From Balneolaceae bacterium (GTDB taxonomy: Bacteria; Bacteroidota; Rhodothermia; Balneolales; Balneolaceae): a stretch of 64,000 nt of DNA. The notes under the pieces were generated by a model. It was not told the origin of the DNA, made no database searches, and worked only from the letters and a program-made list of their open reading frames with translations. The position numbers and the translations under genes were made by a program. Location of the stretch: NCBI GenBank assembly GCA_017643365.1, contig JAEPNO010000005.1:62001-126000 (forward strand), written 5' to 3'. Position 1 is the first letter of the stretch. Every line of letters starts with the position of its first letter. Of the stretch, positions 52,870 through 62,896 are shown one piece after another.

Positions 52870-54639
52870 GTGAAATCAGGTAAACAATATACCGGAATTG
52901 TTCTTGAAGCTGATAGCCTCAAATTTGCTGTTATCCAGATTAAGGATAAAAAAGTACAGCTCGTTAAAATCGACCGGGTTTCACTAGTAGAAAAACTAGA
53001 TTCACAAGCGCCAAGTGCTGATTTAGATGATGTATTTGGGGAATCTAGTGATGATGTATTTGATTTAGATAGTGCATTAAATGATAACGGTGGCGGTTCA
53101 GAAATTGATTTAGATGACGATTTATTAGGTGGTCTTGATGATGATATCTTAAGCGATCTGGACGATGATATTCTTGGGGAAATCGGTGACGATATTGATC
53201 TTGAAATAGATGAACTCGAGAAAGGAGATGAAATTGTAGACGTTGATGAGGTAGATGAGACAGAAGGTCCTATTTCAAACGAAATCCAAGTATTCAATTT
53301 TCTATCCGAGCTTGATCCTAAAAGAGTTGATGTTGGCTTAAACATTCCTGCCGGTACTGCAATATTCCAAGTACTTAAAGATGTTGACTTTAACGAGGTA
53401 AAAAAGAAAGATCTTAAAGTAATTATTGATGATCGCTTAGAAGCACTTTATGGCGATCCTAAAGATCAAGACTTCTATTCTTACGGTGTTCGTGATGACG
53501 GTGCATTGGTGCTTTCAAGTATCGATGAACAACCAATGATGCTTTCACTAATCGATAGAGTTGCTACGCTTTATCGTGGTAAAATTTTTATAAGTGAGAT
53601 TTTACCGGATGAATCGATTTTATTGGCAATGGTTAAAGCCAATTATGAACTCGATGACGAAAAAATCACCTGTGTTCTACAGTTTTCTGAGCTTAATTGC
53701 CGTGTGATTTTCATGAAGGGGGATAAGCTTTGGTTAGTATCTCCAATTATTACCGAAGGTGTTCGCTCACGTAAATTTTTGAACACGGTATTCTCGAAAA
53801 TCCTTTTCCAGTTAGATACCGGTGAAGTTCCAAATCTGGATCGATTGATCATTTGTAATAACTCGCTAGGCGAGGAAGGTATATCGTTCTTTAAAGAGCG
53901 TTTTCCTGATGTTGAAGTTTCAGAGTTTGAATTCGCTGAAGAGTACTTCGATCCGCAAGAGCATACGCTTGATTCAATTGCTCCCTTTACCACGGCAATT
54001 GGTACTGCTTGGGCTGCATCAAAATTCGAAAAGGATGTATTTTCAGGAATTTCATTCTTGCCTAAATATGTAGTCGATCGGCAGAAAATTTTTAAGCTGC
54101 AGTGGCATGGTTTTGTTTTACTATTGTTGGTGTTCTTTTCGATTCCCGGAATTAACCTTCTGTGGCAACAACATTTTGAGGATATAAACAGATTAGAATC
54201 AGAAATATCATTGGTTGACACACAATTGCAATCTTACGCCCCAACGGTAAATAACTATAATCGAATTAGCAGTCAGTTAAGTCAAATTCAGGATAACCTA
54301 GTGTTGATGAATACGCTTGCTGAAAATTCAATCACATGGTCGGTTAATTTGCACAGGATTAACTCTGGAATTGATAATATTGGTGGTGTTTGGCTTACAA
54401 ATATCACTCCGGGTGATGAACCTAATACGTTAGAAATTCAAGGTATTGCTCGGTACAGAGATCGAGTAGGCGCCGTTGCTGAGCTATTTGCTGATGCAAC
54501 TCTTTTGGATGTAACCAGAGCTGAAATTCGAGAAGTTGAAGTATATAACTTCAGTTATTATGTAAATAAAATTGTAGCAAATACAGATGTTTACACTCCT
54601 CAAAACCTACAAGGTATGGGAGACCTAATCGGCAATTAA
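52870..54639 (+). CDS. PilM-PilN fusion protein (GspL-like) with acidic insert
   Basis: A 589-residue protein that appears to join two assembly platform proteins. Residues 1-45 and 136-400 form a PilM/GspL-like actin-type fold (YTGIVLEADSLKFAVIQI; later SLIDRVATLYRGKIFISEIL). Between them, residues 50-135, is an Asp-rich stretch with repeated LDDDIL units. A membrane helix (about 412-431), a coiled coil (432-475) and a ferredoxin-like PilN domain follow (IGGVWLTNITPGDEPN). In classic type IV pili PilM and PilN are separate; here the fusion resembles GspL. Translation starts at a GTG. Confidence 0.78.
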   Translation: MKSGKQYTGIVLEADSLKFAVIQIKDKKVQLVKIDRVSLVEKLDSQAPSADLDDVFGESSDDVFDLDSALNDNGGGSEIDLDDDLLGGLDDDILSDLDDDILGEIGDDIDLEIDELEKGDEIVDVDEVDETEGPISNEIQVFNFLSELDPKRVDVGLNIPAGTAIFQVLKDVDFNEVKKKDLKVIIDDRLEALYGDPKDQDFYSYGVRDDGALVLSSIDEQPMMLSLIDRVATLYRGKIFISEILPDESILLAMVKANYELDDEKITCVLQFSELNCRVIFMKGDKLWLVSPIITEGVRSRKFLNTVFSKILFQLDTGEVPNLDRLIICNNSLGEEGISFFKERFPDVEVSEFEFAEEYFDPQEHTLDSIAPFTTAIGTAWAASKFEKDVFSGISFLPKYVVDRQKIFKLQWHGFVLLLLVFFSIPGINLLWQQHFEDINRLESEISLVDTQLQSYAPTVNNYNRISSQLSQIQDNLVLMNTLAENSITWSVNLHRINSGIDNIGGVWLTNITPGDEPNTLEIQGIARYRDRVGAVAELFADATLLDVTRAEIREVEVYNFSYYVNKIVANTDVYTPQNLQGMGDLIGN

Positions 54640-55502
54640 TGTCATACGCACTACGAAATACCCTAATTCTATTAACCACACTCTCATTAATTGTAGGGTT
54701 GGGATTCGCATATTCTAAATTCTTTTTAGAATCGAAAGTTGAAGACTTGCAAAATTCACTTGTCGAAAAACAAAACGATTTAGTATCAAAAGAAGATATC
54801 AATACCCAATTTACTGAGCTTAACGAGCGCTATATTGCAGCTCTTGAAGTAATTTCGAATTACGACAAAATTCTTTTTAGTTCTAATAAACCGGATGATG
54901 TATTCGATTTTTTGAATAGAGTAAACCAAGAAGGTGGTTTCCAAATTTATTACGATTACATTTTTTCCGATTCTTTACCAAGTGCTGAATATGGCATCCT
55001 TCAATCATCAATTGCCGGATATAGTAAATACGATGCCTTAACTGACTTTATAAATCGAATTGAACACTCACAGTTATTAAATAAAGTGAGTAACCTCACA
55101 ATTTCACCTGCCCGACAAGATGATGATTTAAGAATGGTTAATTTCTCGTTTGATCTTGAAAGTTATTACGAAAAAACCAATCTATTCGACTCATTAGGTA
55201 GAAATTACAGTATAAATCTGGATGAAGATATCTCAACCTATAACCCACTTTATCCGTTAATACAACCATCTGTTCAAGCCAACATCAATGGTTTAATTAA
55301 CATCCAAAGTTCTAAACTAATTGGTATGACAGCCAATCGTGTATTTGTAAGAGATCAAACCGGAAGGATCGCATCACTTAAAGAAGGTGATCAAGTTTAT
55401 CTTGGTAGCTTAGTATCAATTGATTTACAAAATAAAAAAGCTACCTTTAATTTAGACGTAGGCGGCATAGAAGAAGTAGTTACCCTGGAGGTAGTTCGAT
55501 GA
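54639..55502 (+). CDS. PilO-like protein with PilP-like C-terminus
   Basis: A 287-residue single-pass protein: membrane helix at 7-25, coiled coil at 30-75, a PilO-type ferredoxin-like domain at about 85-180 (FDFLNRVNQEGGFQI; ALTDFINRIEHS), and a C-terminal beta domain at about 205-287 (LIGMTANRVFVRDQTGRIASLKEGDQVYLG) that resembles the homology region of PilP or GspC. PilN-PilO form the alignment ring and PilP contacts the secretin, so this protein could link both. It overlaps the upstream gene by 1 nt and the secretin gene by 4 nt. Confidence 0.75.
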   Translation: MSYALRNTLILLTTLSLIVGLGFAYSKFFLESKVEDLQNSLVEKQNDLVSKEDINTQFTELNERYIAALEVISNYDKILFSSNKPDDVFDFLNRVNQEGGFQIYYDYIFSDSLPSAEYGILQSSIAGYSKYDALTDFINRIEHSQLLNKVSNLTISPARQDDDLRMVNFSFDLESYYEKTNLFDSLGRNYSINLDEDISTYNPLYPLIQPSVQANINGLINIQSSKLIGMTANRVFVRDQTGRIASLKEGDQVYLGSLVSIDLQNKKATFNLDVGGIEEVVTLEVVR

Positions 55503-57448
55503 AAAACAATAAATTATATCATTTACAGAAGTTTAAGATTGCTTTGCTAGCAATGTTAACTGTGGTTTGTGTGCCTTATTTGGCAGTTGCTCAAGATGAA
55601 TATCCGCGTGAATATACCAACCCAGATGAAATTGTAGCCTTTGACCGTAGTACAAGCTATACAGAAGCGATTGAGGTAATTAACCAATTCTATCAGGAGT
55701 ACCGGAACAAGTTTATTATAGATCAAACAGGAACTACAGGTGCAATTGGTGTTGCTTTACCGGCAATGCACTGGCAAGACGCTCTAGAATTTATTCTACG
55801 ATTAAAAAACTTAACATTAGTTGAAGCTGATGATTATGTAGAGATTGTTACTTTAGCATCGGTTACACCACAGGAAGAGCGACAATCAGCTCAAGCTCAA
55901 GAAGGCGATATCAACCTTAGAACTCGCGAAATCAAAATCAATGCAACGTTTTTTGAAGGAAATAGAAGAGCTCTGCAAGAAATTGGTGTTGATTGGTCTA
56001 CACTAAGAGGAACCGTTCCAACAGAACTTAATGATATTGTTGGAGGTGAAGGTGCCGGAGGTGGAGAAGGACTTCCAAATACAGGCTTTTCAGATCAATT
56101 TGTTTCGATAAACTCATTTAATGCGGCAAATGTATCTCAAAACGTTTTTAATGCGCTCGTAAATTTGGGCCCATTTGGTGAAGGTGATAATGCAATAAGT
56201 GTGCAGGCTCTTTTTAATGCATTTGAAGCAGATAACCTGGGTGAAGTTCTTGCCACACCATTTACAAAAGTACTTGATGGACAAGAAGGTAGAGTACAGG
56301 TTGGACAGGATTTCTCGATTAAGCAGCGAGATATAGCCGGAAATGTAACCGATCAATTTTTTAGTACTGGAACCATTTTAACTGTAACACCTACTGTAAT
56401 TGAAATAAATGATACTTCATTTATTCACTTAGACATTGAAGTCGAACGATCATCTGCACAGCCGGATGCGGTAAGTACAATCATCAACAAACAGCAAGCT
56501 TCAACACAAGCACTTTTGCTGGATGGAGAGGCAACTACCATTGCCGGTTTATATCGAACCGAGGAATCTAACGTTCGCCGCGGAATACCAATTTTAAAAG
56601 ATTTACCGCCATGGTTTTTCGGATTACGTTACCTGTTCGGTTATAACTCAAACGATTATCTTGAAAACGAGCTGATCATTATTGTTCAAGCTTCACTCGA
56701 AAAAACGGTGAGAGAACGTGCTAATGCTCAATTTGCAAATAAACAGAGCATTCTAGATTCTGAACGTGATTACATGCGCAGTAATTTAGAAGCAGTATTT
56801 AACAATAATTTGTTGACTACTCAGGCTGATATGCGTCAAAACTTAGATACGTTTGTATCGAACGATGATGAAGCAACAACAACTTCCACTGAACCTGAAA
56901 ATTCTAATTCTAATACTGTAGAAAATACCAACACAGAAGAAACAGATAATACAGGAATGGAAAATGAAGTAGCAGGAGATTCCGGTGAGACGGAAATGGA
57001 AACAACGGAAGAAACTCCGGATAATCCATCTACAGAAGTAAAACCTGTTGCTGAAGTTGAACTTACTCCAGAGCAGCAACAATTGGCCGATGAACTAAGT
57101 ATGCCGGTTGAAAACCCAGAATTGATGGTATTGGTACCTCGTGCATTTAGCTTAAACGAGTATTTAGAACAACAGCAAAATGGTGAAATTGAGCCGGAAA
57201 TTATTGAATCAGATGATCACAAATTCTTTGTAATCGGAGGCTCATTTATAGTTCGAAATAATGCGAATCGTTTCAATCAAACTTTAATGGATGAAGGCTT
57301 CGAAACCCGAATACTATTCCACCCGGAGTCTAGATTCAATTTTGTAGCCTATCAAGGGTTCGCCACATTTGAAGAAGCAGTTGCTTATCTAATGTCGATC
57401 AGAGACAATGTAAACTCTGATGCGTGGTTGTTTACGCTTCCCAAATAA
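55499..57448 (+). CDS. PilQ/GspD secretin with C-terminal SPOR domain
   Basis: A 649-residue outer-membrane secretin. Signal peptide residues 1-32 (cut after AVAQ), one STN/N0-like domain at 45-125, and a secretin core at about 145-400 with VGQDFSIKQ, GTILTVTPTVIE and RRGIPILKDLPPWF. Then a Thr/Glu-rich linker (455-535) leads to a SPOR-type domain at 572-649 (FFVIGGSFIVRNNANRF... DEGFETRILF). SPOR domains bind denuded peptidoglycan; fused to a secretin this would anchor or localise the channel at the cell wall. It has fewer N domains than GspD. It ends the cluster. Confidence 0.88.
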   Translation: MKNNKLYHLQKFKIALLAMLTVVCVPYLAVAQDEYPREYTNPDEIVAFDRSTSYTEAIEVINQFYQEYRNKFIIDQTGTTGAIGVALPAMHWQDALEFILRLKNLTLVEADDYVEIVTLASVTPQEERQSAQAQEGDINLRTREIKINATFFEGNRRALQEIGVDWSTLRGTVPTELNDIVGGEGAGGGEGLPNTGFSDQFVSINSFNAANVSQNVFNALVNLGPFGEGDNAISVQALFNAFEADNLGEVLATPFTKVLDGQEGRVQVGQDFSIKQRDIAGNVTDQFFSTGTILTVTPTVIEINDTSFIHLDIEVERSSAQPDAVSTIINKQQASTQALLLDGEATTIAGLYRTEESNVRRGIPILKDLPPWFFGLRYLFGYNSNDYLENELIIIVQASLEKTVRERANAQFANKQSILDSERDYMRSNLEAVFNNNLLTTQADMRQNLDTFVSNDDEATTTSTEPENSNSNTVENTNTEETDNTGMENEVAGDSGETEMETTEETPDNPSTEVKPVAEVELTPEQQQLADELSMPVENPELMVLVPRAFSLNEYLEQQQNGEIEPEIIESDDHKFFVIGGSFIVRNNANRFNQTLMDEGFETRILFHPESRFNFVAYQGFATFEEAVAYLMSIRDNVNSDAWLFTLPK

Positions 57449-57454
57449 AACGGT

Positions 57455-58237
57455 TTAAGCATGGTTATGGATGAAGTCGATGGAGATCTTATTAAAGATC
57501 CTCGGCTTCTCCACATTGCAAACATGTCCACAATTCTCGATTACTTCTAGGTATGCGTGCTGGTGATCGGCAACGATTTGCTCAACCGGGGGAAGAAACA
57601 TATAATCTTCTCGGCCCATTACATACAACATTGGCGTGTCGATTTCCTTTTCCTTAAAGTATTTAAGTAATGGATTTACCGAATTCGTTAGTTTAAACCA
57701 GCGCATGAACTCTTTTTGGTAAAGTTTTTTTGCTTCACCAATAAATAGATTTCTAGCTTTAGCGTGGCGTTTTCGGGGCATGATTATCCACGCAAAAAAA
57801 CGATACAACCACATATAAGGCACGAATTTTTTAAATGTATTTCCTAGAAATACTAACAGCCTTGAGCGCACATTCAGCCTGGTAATAGCTCCACAAAGAA
57901 TGGCTGATTTAACACGATCCGGTGCAATTTCACTTAAATTTCGAATGATGATTGTACCTAAAGAAACACCTATAAAGTGAGCTCTCTCTATGTTTAAGTG
58001 ATCCAGTACTTGCAACACATCCTTGCTGATGTCATCGAAGGTGTAGTCTTCTTCGTAATACAATTGCAATGCATCTTTTGATTTTCCATGACCTCTCAGA
58101 TCAACAAGAAGCACATTAAACGCACTTTTAAAGGCTTTTAACTGCTGAAACCAAATAGATGAACTTCCACCTGCGCCGTGTACAAATACAACCCATTCTT
58201 TACTCTCTTTTTTTTCGTATTTCTTATAGTAAAGCAC
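57455..58237 (-). CDS. alpha/beta hydrolase
   Basis: A 260-residue alpha/beta hydrolase. Oxyanion motif VFVHGAGGSSSIWFQQ near the N-terminus, LLVDLRGHGKS, nucleophile elbow GVSLGT (Ser), the Asp in MGREDYMF and the catalytic His in NCGHVCNVEKP near the C-terminus. Esterase or lactonase activity is likely; the substrate is unknown. The start is a GTG at 58237; no in-frame ATG lies upstream. It is convergent with the secretin gene (6-base gap) and divergent from the OlsB-like gene. Confidence 0.88.
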   Translation of the reverse strand: MLYYKKYEKKESKEWVVFVHGAGGSSSIWFQQLKAFKSAFNVLLVDLRGHGKSKDALQLYYEEDYTFDDISKDVLQVLDHLNIERAHFIGVSLGTIIIRNLSEIAPDRVKSAILCGAITRLNVRSRLLVFLGNTFKKFVPYMWLYRFFAWIIMPRKRHAKARNLFIGEAKKLYQKEFMRWFKLTNSVNPLLKYFKEKEIDTPMLYVMGREDYMFLPPVEQIVADHQHAYLEVIENCGHVCNVEKPRIFNKISIDFIHNHA

Positions 58238-58342
58238 TCGGCACTAAAATTTACATTACTTTTTTGTGATGAATTTATATACTGTTAATGCTTAGATAAC
58301 AGTTCACCGCTATTTTTAACTAGTTATCTAAAACTAAGCAGA

Positions 58343-59128
58343 ATGAGCCTTATCAACAATTATATATCATCAACAAAAGTAGCCGATTTTTCAATTCCGG
58401 GGCAGAAATATTCTGTTAAAATTGCATCCAATCGGAAAGAAGTAGAAAAAGCTCTGCGTTTACGATTCGATGTGTTTAATATTGAATTGGGAGAGGGGCT
58501 CGAAAAGTCGTTCCAAACCTACATGGATGAAGATGAGTACGATGCTCAATGTCACCACCTAATTGTCGTTGAAAATAGCGCCAATGAAGTGATTGGTACC
58601 TACCGAATGCAGGATGATCAAATGGCGCAATCTGGAAATGGTTTTTATACTGCTCAAGAATTTGATATCTCTCATTTCCCAAATGATGTGTTAACAAACT
58701 CGGTTGAACTGGGCAGAGCCTGTATTCATCGAGATCACCGAAGCGGTAGGGTGTTATATTTGCTTTGGAGAGGCTTAGCCAAGTATCTTTCGCTTTCTGC
58801 AAAGAGATATTTATTTGGATGCTGTTCAATCACTTCACAAAATCCTGCCGAAGGCGAAGCTGTGTATAATTATTTAAAAGAAACCGGTGCTTTTCACCAA
58901 ACAATAACTATTCCTGTGCAATCAGAATTTGAATGTCTCTCACTTACAGCACAGTCTGCATATAATGATGAAGTGAAGCTTCCACAGTTATTTAAACTAT
59001 ATATGGATCTGGGCACCAAAGTTTGTAGTAAACCGGCCTTAGATCGAACTTTCAAAACCATCGACTATTTAATTTTGTTAGATAAAGAGTCTCTTTCTGA
59101 GCAATCGAAAGCACTTTTTTTGCGATAG
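58343..59128 (+). CDS. OlsB/GlsB-like amino acid N-acyltransferase (GNAT fold)
   Basis: A 261-residue protein of the ornithine/glycine lipid N-acyltransferase family (PF13444 type). Typical motifs are EKALRLRFDVFNIELGEG, DEYDAQCHHLIVVE, VIGTYRM and SVELGRACIHRDHRSG. OlsB joins a 3-hydroxyacyl chain from ACP to the amine of ornithine; GlsB of Bacteroides uses glycine. The gene is followed 17 bases later by a PlsC-type acyltransferase, the same pairing as in aminolipid operons, so an aminolipid role is strongly suggested. The amino acid used is not known. Confidence 0.88.
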   Translation: MSLINNYISSTKVADFSIPGQKYSVKIASNRKEVEKALRLRFDVFNIELGEGLEKSFQTYMDEDEYDAQCHHLIVVENSANEVIGTYRMQDDQMAQSGNGFYTAQEFDISHFPNDVLTNSVELGRACIHRDHRSGRVLYLLWRGLAKYLSLSAKRYLFGCCSITSQNPAEGEAVYNYLKETGAFHQTITIPVQSEFECLSLTAQSAYNDEVKLPQLFKLYMDLGTKVCSKPALDRTFKTIDYLILLDKESLSEQSKALFLR

Positions 59129-59145
59129 TTTTCATACTTTCTTGT

Positions 59146-59943
59146 ATGGCGAATTTGAGAGCGACTATTCGATTAATCCGATTCTTACTGTCTACGGTTT
59201 TTTATTATTCTGTGATACTTTTCGGAAATGTAATGTCCATTTTTGGGGCAGATAAAAAAGGATGGTCTGCCTTTGCGAGATATCGATGGGGACGATCTGT
59301 ATCCAAAATCATCGGAATGCGCATTCATATTGAAGGGGAGCCACCCAAACCACCATTTTTTTTAGTAGCCAATCACCTTAGCTATATTGATATTTGGGCT
59401 CTTTTCTCCACTGCTAAAGGGACTTTTATCGCAAAGAGTGACATCAGGAATTGGCCGATCGCCGGTTTTGTTTTGGCTACCTCGGGATTAATATTTGTAG
59501 ATCGCTCAAAACGAAGTGATGTAACTAGAGTGAATGCAGAGATCACCACTCATTTAACACCAACTCAAGGTATTTTTCTATTTCCCGAAAGTACAACCAG
59601 CAACGGCGAAGGTGTACTCCCATTTAAATCATCATTATTTCAGTATCCGGCTCAGGAAGAGATTCCCGTTTCTACGGCTACAATTACTTACACTTGCGAT
59701 AATAAAGAAGTAGATTGCTCGCTTGAACTTTGTTGGTGGAATGACACACCCTTTCCTATTCATTTTTGGAATGTTCTAAAAATTAAACAATTTGATGCTC
59801 ACGTAACATTCAGTACCGAAAAACTGCTTAGTTCAAACCGGAAAGAGTTGGCAAATAAAAGCTATCACATTGTTGCAAATCATTTTAAACCGGTAAATCA
59901 AAAAGATATTCATGAAAAAGAAACCGGCAGCATTACTGTTTAA
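59146..59943 (+). CDS. PlsC-type 1-acyl-glycerophosphate/OlsA-like acyltransferase
   Basis: A 265-residue membrane-associated acyltransferase. The catalytic NHxxxxD motif is NHLSYIDIW, followed by the substrate loops GLIFVDRSKRSD and FLFPESTTSNGEG. Helices near the N-terminus (14-35) anchor it. PlsC homologues next to an OlsB-type N-acyltransferase are OlsA/GlsA enzymes that add the second acyl chain to the 3-hydroxy group of the lyso-aminolipid. A role in glycerophospholipid synthesis instead cannot be excluded. Confidence 0.87.
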   Translation: MANLRATIRLIRFLLSTVFYYSVILFGNVMSIFGADKKGWSAFARYRWGRSVSKIIGMRIHIEGEPPKPPFFLVANHLSYIDIWALFSTAKGTFIAKSDIRNWPIAGFVLATSGLIFVDRSKRSDVTRVNAEITTHLTPTQGIFLFPESTTSNGEGVLPFKSSLFQYPAQEEIPVSTATITYTCDNKEVDCSLELCWWNDTPFPIHFWNVLKIKQFDAHVTFSTEKLLSSNRKELANKSYHIVANHFKPVNQKDIHEKETGSITV

Positions 59944-60457
59944 TATCCTCTTCATAGAGCAAGGCATTGAATTATTAGAAGAGATTTCTGACAAATTATA
60001 TACTCGTCAAAATGGAACCTACCATAAAAGTGGAATAGGCCGACATTTTCGACATATTATTGAACATTATTACAGTTTAATTGAAGCCGATTTTTGCGGT
60101 CAGATTAACTACGATGATAGGGAGCGAAATCTCAGGTTAGAAAATGATCGAGAATTCATGATAACGTCCCTTAAGCGTGTTAACGATTCATTGAAAAAGT
60201 TGGAGGAAACCCCGGATCGCTTGTTCAATAAAATAAGTGTGATAAGTAATGAGGGTCTAAAAGATGCTGATCAGATTGCGAGCGAATCTTCTGTTTTACG
60301 TGAACTTCAATTTTTGATAAGTCACACCGTTCATCATTACGCATTAATTGGGTTGATATTACGAACGCACGGCTTTAACCCGAAGGATGATTTTGGCGTT
60401 GCTCCATCTACATTGGCACACGAAAAGCGAAAAGAATCGGTTGAGAAAGCTTCCTAA
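59912..60457 (+). CDS. DinB-like four-helix protein
   Basis: A 181-residue helical protein of the DinB superfamily. Likely metal ligands are His residues in GRHFRHIIEHYYSLI and HTVHHYALIG, at the positions used by DinB-fold enzymes. Members include thiol transferases and metal-dependent hydrolases, and many have unknown activity. The start (59912) overlaps the acyltransferase gene by 32 nt, so translation is coupled. Its position suggests a role in the lipid pathway, which is inference. Confidence 0.75.
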   Translation: MKKKPAALLFNILFIEQGIELLEEISDKLYTRQNGTYHKSGIGRHFRHIIEHYYSLIEADFCGQINYDDRERNLRLENDREFMITSLKRVNDSLKKLEETPDRLFNKISVISNEGLKDADQIASESSVLRELQFLISHTVHHYALIGLILRTHGFNPKDDFGVAPSTLAHEKRKESVEKAS

Positions 60458-60460
60458 CTA

Positions 60461-62896
60461 ATGCCTCCTATGCCAAACGTGCTCCAAAAGGTATTAGCCT
60501 CAAAATGGTTGGTTTTTCTGCTCTTTTATTTGGGTTTATTAGTCGTATCAAATGGGATGCAGCTTATTTCTTCGGATGAAAACAAAGAAGAAATAGTAGA
60601 AAGCTTTGTCGAAAACCCGAGAATCGTTTACATACAGGATCCGGTGTTATCCGAGCAAAGAACTTCATTAAAACCTGACGAGGAAACACTATTCATTGAT
60701 CTTGAATCGGTTAGCATTCAAAAGAATGCAGAGAGAATTCAAAGGTATTTAGCTTTATTATCAGTTTCTGATTTCCACTTAATTGGAGAAGGCATTGGTG
60801 GAAGTGTTGCTATGCACCTGGCGTCAAAAGCAGATTCAATAGGTGTAATTTCACTAACACTTATTGACTCACATGGTGTGGTTGAACTCGAATTGATGGG
60901 AGGGAGTACGCTAAACAAAGCGATCTACAGTACTAAAAAAGCGGTACTTGGATTCATACAATATGCAGTACCTCATTTCAGTAGATTTAATTTTTTGTCA
61001 GATCAAATCACCAAACTAGAGATTCAAGCGAACTCAGATCAACAAAAAATTCGTACTGTAGTAAAAGAAATAGAAGTTCCAGTATCAATAATCCAGTCTC
61101 CTAATTCAAACTTGAGTATTGCTTTGGTTGAAGAGCACCATCGGATAATTCCTCAAAGTGAGATCGTTTATCTAAGCGAAAAAGAAGCTATTTGGGATTC
61201 AATCGCTGCTTTTCATCAAAAAGTTGACGCAGGTTTTGCATTAAATCGTTCTAGCATTTCTCAAGCGACTAAAATTTTGTCACTTCAACCCTTTGATCCT
61301 GAAAATAGTATAAAAGCTGAAGGAAAGGCCTTAGTGATCCTAATTCTGGTAATCATTTTTTCAACCTTCATCACCGAAGATTTAACCTGCATTGGAGCTG
61401 GATTATTGATTGCCAGAGGAATTATTGGGTTTATACCGGGCACATTGGCTTGCTTGATAGGGATATTTATCGGCGATATTCTACTCTATTTACTAGGAAG
61501 GTGGGTTGCCACCGGAACCTTACATAAAGCACCATTGAAATGGTTTATATCTGAGAATGACCTTCAGCTATCGTATCACTGGTTCGAGGCTAAAGGTCCT
61601 GCTATAATTATCGCGAGCAGATTTATTCCCGGCACACGTTTTCCAACTTACGTGAGTGCAGGAGCCATTGGCGCAAAATTTAGTACGTTTATCCTTTACT
61701 TCGGAATTGCGTCTATACTCTGGACTCCGGTTCTTGTTGGCTTAGCAGTTCTTTTAGGCAATCAAATGATCGAATACTTTAGCGTTTACCAAGAATATGC
61801 ACTTTGGGTGTTTTTTGGGGTTATTACACTTCTTTTGTTGATTGTGAAAGTAATTGTCCCTGCATTTTCTTTTAAAGGGCGAAGATTGCTATTCGGAAAG
61901 TTTCGAAGAATAATGAGCTGGGAATTTTGGCCGCTTTGGGTATTGTATTCCCCTGTTTTAGTCTATGCTGTCTTTCTATGGATAAAACATAAAAGCATTA
62001 CGCTAGTAACGTTAGCGAACCCTGTAATTGAGTTTGGTGGCTTTGCCGGGGAATCAAAATCAGAAATTCTACGATCCTTAAATCAACCGGATTCAGTCCC
62101 TGCATTTCAATTAATTGATCCTGAAGATGATCCAGTTGATGCTTGTGTGCGTTTTATGGAAGTCCATAATTTAGAATTCCCTGTTGTTCTAAAACCGGAT
62201 GTTGGCGAGCGGGGGAAGGGGGTTATCATCCCTAAAAATAAAACTGATTTAAAAAGTGGCTGTTTTAGTTTTTCGAGCAAATTTATTATTCAAAAATATG
62301 TTGGCGGACTTGAGTTTGGGGTGTTTTATGTACGTTTTCCGAATCAAGAAAAAGGGCGAATTATCTCAATCACCAGAAAAAAATATTTGTGGCTAACCGG
62401 TGATGGAAAGCAAACATTAGAAGAATTGATTTTAAACGATGAGAGAGCAGTTTGCTTAGCTAAAATCCATTTTGAGCAACATGTAGACCATTTATTTAAG
62501 GTGATTCCGAAGGGCAAGAAAATTAAACTTGTTGAAATTGGAACTCATTCACGCGGAGCAATTTTCAAGGACGCGATTCATCTCAATTCTAATGCTTTAA
62601 CCGATAAATTTGATGAGCTTTGCGAGCAATTCAAGGGTTTTCACTTTGGAAGATTCGATGTTAAAGTGCCAACCGAAACCCACTTAAAAGAAGGCTCTAA
62701 CATCAATATTCTTGAAGTAAACGGGATTACATCGGAAGCCACGCATATGTATGATCCCAAATATCCTTACTGGTATGCAGTTAAAACCTTATGTAATCAA
62801 TGGAAAACAGCATACGCAATCGCGGCTCAAGTGAAAGATCAAAATAAAGCGTTAACTACTCCAACTCTAAGAGAAGTGCTAAGTAAGGTGTTTTAA
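60461..62896 (+). CDS. three-domain fusion: hydrolase-like, DedA/VTT, ATP-grasp
   Basis: An 811-residue multidomain membrane protein. After an N-terminal helix (16-34), residues 50-270 look like an alpha/beta hydrolase but the nucleophile elbow is GEGIGG, with Gly where Ser is expected. Residues about 285-470 are a DedA/VTT domain (FSTFITEDLTCIGAGLL; FIPGTRFPTYVSAGAIG). Residues about 555-770 are an ATP-grasp ligase (VVLKPDVGERGKGVII; FIIQKYVGGLEFGVFYVRF; FGRFDVKVP; NILEVNGITSEATHMYDP). DedA proteins flip lipids. The chain may ligate an amino acid to a lipid and flip it; that is hypothesis. It starts 3 bases after the DinB-like gene. Confidence 0.8.
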   Translation: MPPMPNVLQKVLASKWLVFLLFYLGLLVVSNGMQLISSDENKEEIVESFVENPRIVYIQDPVLSEQRTSLKPDEETLFIDLESVSIQKNAERIQRYLALLSVSDFHLIGEGIGGSVAMHLASKADSIGVISLTLIDSHGVVELELMGGSTLNKAIYSTKKAVLGFIQYAVPHFSRFNFLSDQITKLEIQANSDQQKIRTVVKEIEVPVSIIQSPNSNLSIALVEEHHRIIPQSEIVYLSEKEAIWDSIAAFHQKVDAGFALNRSSISQATKILSLQPFDPENSIKAEGKALVILILVIIFSTFITEDLTCIGAGLLIARGIIGFIPGTLACLIGIFIGDILLYLLGRWVATGTLHKAPLKWFISENDLQLSYHWFEAKGPAIIIASRFIPGTRFPTYVSAGAIGAKFSTFILYFGIASILWTPVLVGLAVLLGNQMIEYFSVYQEYALWVFFGVITLLLLIVKVIVPAFSFKGRRLLFGKFRRIMSWEFWPLWVLYSPVLVYAVFLWIKHKSITLVTLANPVIEFGGFAGESKSEILRSLNQPDSVPAFQLIDPEDDPVDACVRFMEVHNLEFPVVLKPDVGERGKGVIIPKNKTDLKSGCFSFSSKFIIQKYVGGLEFGVFYVRFPNQEKGRIISITRKKYLWLTGDGKQTLEELILNDERAVCLAKIHFEQHVDHLFKVIPKGKKIKLVEIGTHSRGAIFKDAIHLNSNALTDKFDELCEQFKGFHFGRFDVKVPTETHLKEGSNINILEVNGITSEATHMYDPKYPYWYAVKTLCNQWKTAYAIAAQVKDQNKALTTPTLREVLSKVF

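Follow-up and report, generated by a model that had tools for sequence, protein, structure and literature searches.

What do four tightly packed genes in a Balneolaceae genome make together, when two of them resemble lipid acyltransferases and the last encodes an 811-residue fusion of a DedA domain with an ATP-grasp ligase? The genes lie within a 64,000-nucleotide stretch of DNA (the window; positions 62,001 to 126,000 of contig JAEPNO010000005.1, assembly GCA_017643365.1), to which the coordinates below refer unless another locus is named. In order on the + strand they encode an OlsB-like N-acyltransferase (PF13444; 261 amino acids, 58343..59128), an OlsA-like lyso-lipid O-acyltransferase (PF01553; 265 amino acids, 59146..59943), a DinB-like four-helix protein (181 amino acids, 59912..60457) and the fusion itself (60461..62896), in which an N-terminal membrane helix and an alpha/beta-hydrolase-like domain precede the DedA (VTT) domain and a membrane-anchored ligase. 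An earlier annotation made from the letters alone (the sequence-only reading) had placed four closely spaced open reading frames here; this is confirmed, with +17, −32 and +3 nucleotides between the successive co-directional genes. We propose that the operon may make and modify an aminolipid, with the ligase extending the head group and the DedA domain moving the product outward, a reading to which we assign a probability of about 0.5. That the fusion acts in an aminolipid pathway at all is likely.

The association with OlsB is tightest in the window's own family. OlsB is adjacent to the ligase in all 26 ligase-bearing genomes, versus 3 of 54 genomes without the ligase, and no genome of the family had the ligase while lacking OlsB. 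The site occurs as OlsB-OlsA-(DinB)-fusion, as OlsB-OlsA with a hydrolase-DedA or DedA gene (L047, L050, L207), as OlsA with hydrolase-DedA or DedA, or as OlsA alone (L241, L242, L245), and the in-place deletions in the last three loci take out OlsB, DinB and fusion jointly. In this family OlsB can thus do without the ligase, but the ligase is not found without OlsB, a pattern that a ligase acting on the product of OlsB would produce.

Beyond the family, GTDB genomes were scanned with an alignment of the ligase, giving 361 relatives, of which 80 were kept. These belong to Acidobacteriota, Verrucomicrobiota, Calditrichota, KSB1, Planctomycetota, Krumholzibacteriota, Spirochaetota, Thermodesulfobacteriota, Myxococcota and others, and the gene set recurs in about a dozen bacterial phyla; many relatives come from metagenome-assembled genomes, whose taxon names may be wrong. 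The OlsB-OlsA-DinB-fusion set also recurs outside the family, and at some loci OlsF-like synthases of ~600 amino acids stand in for OlsB and OlsA, adjoining the ligase in L093, L095, L096, L108, L133 and L145. Among loci with enough flanking sequence, 29 of 46 have an OlsB or OlsF relative and 38 of 46 have OlsB/OlsF or DinB; outside Balneolaceae the corresponding counts are 14 of 31 and 23 of 31. Genome-wide, PF13444 is present in 48 of 50 ligase genomes from many phyla, and OlsB accompanies 9 of 9 full fusions in the class Rhodothermia. Across 199 Acidobacteriota, PF13444 was found in 27 of 28 genomes with the ligase versus 25 of 171 without it (Fisher P = 7e-18 by genome count, the genomes not being independent). 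An occurrence that tracks OlsB/OlsF across phyla supports the idea that ligase and DedA domain belong to an aminolipid operon. A fusion widespread without acyltransferases nearby would have spoken against it, and most genomes of the fusion clade keep PF13444 nearby or elsewhere. Sister genera show this gene order at the corresponding site, and other phyla show it in rearranged form, indicating that the four-gene arrangement is not a product of chance.

The domains of the fusion also exist as separate neighbouring genes, which supports the view that they work jointly. In Vibrio sp. THAF191d, DedA, ligase, DinB, NRDE, YHS-like, DoxX-like and OlsF-like synthase genes share one strand (the YHS and DoxX names reflect by-eye resemblance to families seen in Bacteroidota clusters), and the synthase scores 428 bits to OlsF. 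Photobacterium GJ3 has DedA, ligase and an OlsF-like gene in the same order, and Salinivibrio has DedA-ligase-DinB-NRDE. Three Paracoccus species have ligase, alpha/beta-hydrolase and DedA close together as separate genes (DedA is annotated as hypothetical in one); in P. denitrificans PD1222 these are PDEN_RS24485, PDEN_RS25810 and PDEN_RS24475, respectively. Azospirillum carries a DedA-ligase fusion.

The N-acyltransferase matches PF13444 with 104.7 bits (E value 5e-30, cut-off 22.4), and its invariant residues are kept family-wide. It scores 133.8 and 130.9 bits against the NCBIfam OlsB equivalogs, below their cut-offs of 350 and 320, and 29.4 bits against the GlsB equivalog (cut-off 300), on which genuine GlsB proteins reach 472-544 bits. 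An ornithine-type amino acid is predicted to be a more likely substrate than glycine. The O-acyltransferase matches PF01553 (E value 1e-16) with intact NHxSYxD and FPE motifs, and is closest to OlsA models at 120.5 bits, under the NCBIfam cut-off of 300. The sequence-only reading had called the pair OlsB/GlsB-like and OlsA/GlsA-like; the first name of each holds, and the GlsB/GlsA half is the weaker (134 versus 29 bits for the N-acyltransferase). Three further PF01553 genes lie elsewhere in the window's genome, which disfavours a role for this OlsA as the sole PlsC of the cell. In Balneolaceae that lack the ligase, a further and distinct OlsB-OlsA pair is often present at another place in the genome (L208:6536-8092, L209, L210, L212, L215). 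The third gene had been called DinB-like, a description borne out by profile matches just under the gathering scores (E value 2e-4; 22.0 bits against 23 for PF05163 and 20.8 against 24.8 for PF12867) and by histidines H48, H138, H141 and H142, conserved in all relatives, with the metal-binding triad H48/H138/H142 present in 56 of 56 sequences.

Folds and topology in the fusion were assigned from profiles, motifs and hydropathy. A hydrophobic segment (residues 11-29, 60491..60547, + strand as for all parts) is followed by the alpha/beta-hydrolase-like domain (residues ~80-280, 60698..61300), recognized from profiles and an alignment of relatives. This domain had been missed when the protein was described as a DedA-ATP-grasp fusion; both named domains are present. 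The DedA/VTT domain (residues 286-470, 61316..61870) matches its profile over residues 313-428 with 62.5 bits (E value 7e-17, above the cut-off of 33.9). Residues E306, D339, R387 and R393 are conserved in 44 relatives and agree with the acidic/arginine pattern of the re-entrant helices, their roles being assigned by analogy with residues described in PMC10127716 that share their position and motif. A conserved membrane segment, WEFWPLWVLYSPVLVYAVFLWIKH (61919..61990), forms the N-terminus of the ligase, and standalone relatives have it too, in keeping with a lipid substrate. Before the ligase core come a basic stretch (KGRRLLFGKFRR) and then the conserved hydrophobic segment (WEFWP..h.Y.P). 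The core itself (residues ~546-790, 62096..62830) matches RimK ATP-grasp (PF08443) from residue 546 with 21.1 bits (E value 3e-4), just above the cut-off of 21. A profile of the aligned relatives matches structures of D-Ala-D-Ala ligase, GshAB and cyanophycin synthetase, and K578, E618, D733, E752 and N754, of catalytic type, are invariant in the alignment; together these make the ATP-grasp assignment secure.

The hydrolase domain is decaying in this lineage. It gives only weak matches in the window protein and matches of 1e-24 to 1e-29 in relatives. Most relatives from outside Balneolaceae, among them fusions of Acidobacteriota and KSB1, retain the whole triad (HGSP, GxSMGG, HGxxDxLVP, His). 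In the window the nucleophilic serine is replaced by Gly111 (GEGIGG in place of GxSxG), and the Asp, the His and the HGSP motif are gone too; in Fodinibius the serine is likewise glycine, but Asp and His are kept. The domain in the window's lineage is a predicted pseudoenzyme. From the positive-inside rule and the need of the ligase for ATP, we infer that the hydrolase is periplasmic and the ligase cytoplasmic.

These features suggest a route in which OlsB would N-acylate an amino acid with a 3-hydroxy fatty acid and OlsA would attach a second fatty acid. The cytoplasmic, membrane-anchored ATP-grasp domain could then use ATP to link a further amino acid, or another amine or carboxylate, to the head group by an amide bond, and the DedA domain would carry the product across to the outer leaflet. 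Hydrolase domains of other phyla that have an intact Ser-Asp-His triad may act on the flipped lipid from the predicted periplasmic side, trimming it or turning it over, the domain in the window's lineage being a putative non-catalytic remnant. DinB may serve as an auxiliary metal protein at a step that the model leaves unspecified. The chances that the ligase would extend the aminolipid itself are about even, and flipping of the extended lipid by DedA is a possibility that we rate a little lower. Slightly more tentative again is the general form of the proposal: an undescribed, phylum-spanning family of membrane-anchored ATP-grasp enzymes extending ornithine-type aminolipids by a second, amide-linked group, and coupled within a single polypeptide to a DedA flippase as well as, in lineages other than the window's, to an active periplasmic hydrolase, as a convergent counterpart of MprF and AcvB for phosphorus-free lipids.

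Several observations weigh against the proposed model. The functional steps of the operon are predicted from gene content, conserved catalytic-type residues and co-occurrence, and known DedA flippases transport undecaprenyl phosphate (PMC10127716). The family tree holds about three independent changes, essentially all concordant and too few for significance. OlsA with hydrolase-DedA or DedA survives without OlsB and ligase, for example in G034 and G057, so this part can serve something else and DedA need not be dedicated to aminolipids. Standalone ligases in other Bacteroidota have no PF13444 nearby; they form a clade strongly separated in the tree, with DinB/NRDE and no OlsB in the neighbourhood, and PF13444 lies elsewhere in 25 of 40 of these genomes, which is at most a weak excess. 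Unrelated genes surround the ligase on Komagataeibacter plasmids. Given the Bacteroidota and Komagataeibacter contexts, the ligase family may reach beyond aminolipids, or the synthases may lie elsewhere in the genome. Fodinibius roseus, whose genome has the fusion (L111), shows no aminolipid spot in PMC12260241, if the columns of the table are rightly read; the same source reports unidentified aminolipids in Fodinibius alkaliphilus and F. salipaludis, the latter another species with the fusion, and as a whole these lipid reports speak neither for nor against the model.

Some of these observations fit other functions. A general membrane-stress or detoxification module of ligase, DinB and NRDE, acting on a non-lipid substrate and placed beside aminolipid genes through shared stress, would explain the Bacteroidota set with its ECF (extracytoplasmic function) sigma factor, DoxX, YHS and LysE and without OlsB, and DinB and NRDE with a Met-Cys start occur in OlsB-bearing phyla too. 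We consider it unlikely: the coupling to OlsB/OlsF is near complete in Acidobacteriota and the class Rhodothermia, and the tree sets the standalone ligases of Bacteroidota apart. Co-occurrence with both kinds of aminolipid synthase, OlsB/A as well as OlsF, across separate phyla argues against a service to undecaprenyl phosphate or an envelope polymer, in which DedA would recycle the C55 lipid phosphate, the ligase would build a lipid-linked peptide and OlsBA would be a co-regulated stress neighbour. The DedA domain does score best against the UptA model (55 bits, far below the cut-off of 250), it keeps the acidic and arginine residues credited with undecaprenyl phosphate flipping, and Ddl is among the relatives of the ligase, but no recurrent peptidoglycan gene was found among the neighbourhood clusters identified, and this explanation too seems improbable.

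The order of the steps may also differ from that proposed. If the ligase acted before OlsB, making a cytoplasmic dipeptide or modified amino acid that OlsB then acylates, DedA and the hydrolase would be mere anchors. Such an order would account equally for the dependence on OlsB, and the nearest structures (D-Ala-D-Ala ligase, glutathione synthetase and cyanophycin synthetase) use soluble or polymeric peptides. It is made doubtful by the fusion to DedA, by the conserved membrane segment kept even in standalone ligases, and by the occurrence of OlsB without the ligase, which means that the product of the ligase is not OlsB's only substrate. Least probable by far is the specific version raised by the sequence-only reading, extension of a glycine lipid to a glycine-serine lipid. 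ATP-grasp is the right type of enzyme, and the serine ligase that joins the head of these lipids has yet to be identified according to PMC12746155, but the synthase resembles OlsB and not GlsB. Of the verified GlsB genomes, G457, G182 and G428 have no ligase and only G391 has one, standalone; this removes a direct link to the glycine-serine lipids of Bacteroides, and the parallel was rejected.

Compared with known systems, the proposed pathway shares with the OlsB/OlsA ornithine-lipid pathway two adjacent enzymes of the same families with intact catalytic motifs, but the window's proteins score well below curated cut-offs, and DinB and the fusion are additions. The bifunctional OlsF (including V. 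cholerae VCA0646; PMC12186959) has no counterpart in the window's operon, whereas several phyla, as well as Vibrio and Photobacterium, have OlsF-like genes next to the ligase in place of OlsB/OlsA. The two-part head of the ornithine-taurine lipid, listed in PMC12493201, is the kind of product proposed here. GlsB/GlsA glycine and glycine-serine lipids (lipid 654, doreamides) are built by a similar N-acyl plus O-acyl pathway with a missing ligase step, and differ in the low GlsB score of the window's synthase and the single ligase relative among four GlsB genomes. In layout the fusion resembles MprF, an aminoacyl-phospholipid synthase-flippase, together with AcvB/VirJ, a periplasmic hydrolase of lysyl-phosphatidylglycerol (PMC8131360, PMC13197417): there too, head-group-adding and flippase-like domains share one protein, and here the hydrolase is predicted to be periplasmic. 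MprF relies on a tRNA-dependent transferase and its own transporter in place of ATP-grasp and DedA, with no shared family or ancestry, and the operon's proteins gave no Pfam or NCBIfam match to its synthase or flippase domains. COG0586-type DedA flippases (UptA, YqjA/YghB) have the same VTT domain with conserved acidic and arginine residues; the fusion to a hydrolase and ATP-grasp, like the low UptA score, sets the window's protein apart, and the only fusions named for this subfamily in PMC10127716 are to rhodanese and PAP2. No description of the fusion was found in the literature searched, where papers on ornithine lipids do not mention the ligase and none was found that links these lipids to DedA or to a head-group ligase of the ATP-grasp kind. 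In the sole paper found on both ornithine lipid and ATP-grasp, the latter concerns acyl-histidine.

In the window's family the operon is flanked by pilQ and a divergent hydrolase gene on one side and by deaminase and APRT genes on the other. The upstream genes at 52870-57448 resemble a type IV pilus or secretion set, the last of them secretin-like and named pilQ here; as a group they mark the site family-wide. The divergent hydrolase (57455-58237) was left out of the system because its synteny is kept in nearly all relatives regardless of operon state; the 105-nucleotide gap between it and the operon (58238..58342, + strand) presumably holds the operon promoter.

The relatives show further arrangements. 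In L080 (490-2775) a 761-residue protein has a DinB-like C-terminus (593-749) and a long N-terminal part without a Pfam match. In several phyla DinB and the ligase are separated by a gene for an NRDE/TANGO2 protein whose Met-Cys start may provide an N-terminal nucleophile (L077:5702-6448, L103:5316-6110, L109, L118, L129, L134, L137), and L184 (6884-8674) joins NRDE/TANGO2 and the ATP-grasp ligase in a single 596-residue protein. The Bacteroidota loci L177-L195 (for example L186:3854-10057) form a conserved cluster of standalone ligase, DinB, NRDE/TANGO2 (Met-Cys start), DoxX, LysE, YHS and ECF sigma factor genes. A conserved protein of ~300 amino acids, matching GH18 no more than marginally, is encoded behind the DedA-ligase fusion of Azospirillum (L247:8783-9676, L253:7262-8194). 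The divergent standalone ligase of conjugative Komagataeibacter plasmids (L250:6956-8041, L251:6938-8017) lies opposite genes for an S-adenosylmethionine-dependent methyltransferase and an iron-containing redox enzyme, with arsenic resistance genes close by.

Aminolipids with two-part heads are known, namely glycine-serine and ornithine-taurine lipids, and to our knowledge no inner-membrane flippase for aminolipids has been described. The assignment of the operon to a pathway is good, and the operon is more widespread than the window alone could show. The ligase family is a concrete candidate for a step of aminolipid ligation and export, in culturable organisms, and it predicts possibly overlooked lipids in Acidobacteriota, Balneolota, Verrucomicrobiota and Vibrionaceae. 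Should the aminolipid reading prove wrong, the family would still define a conserved DedA-ATP-grasp-DinB-NRDE module.

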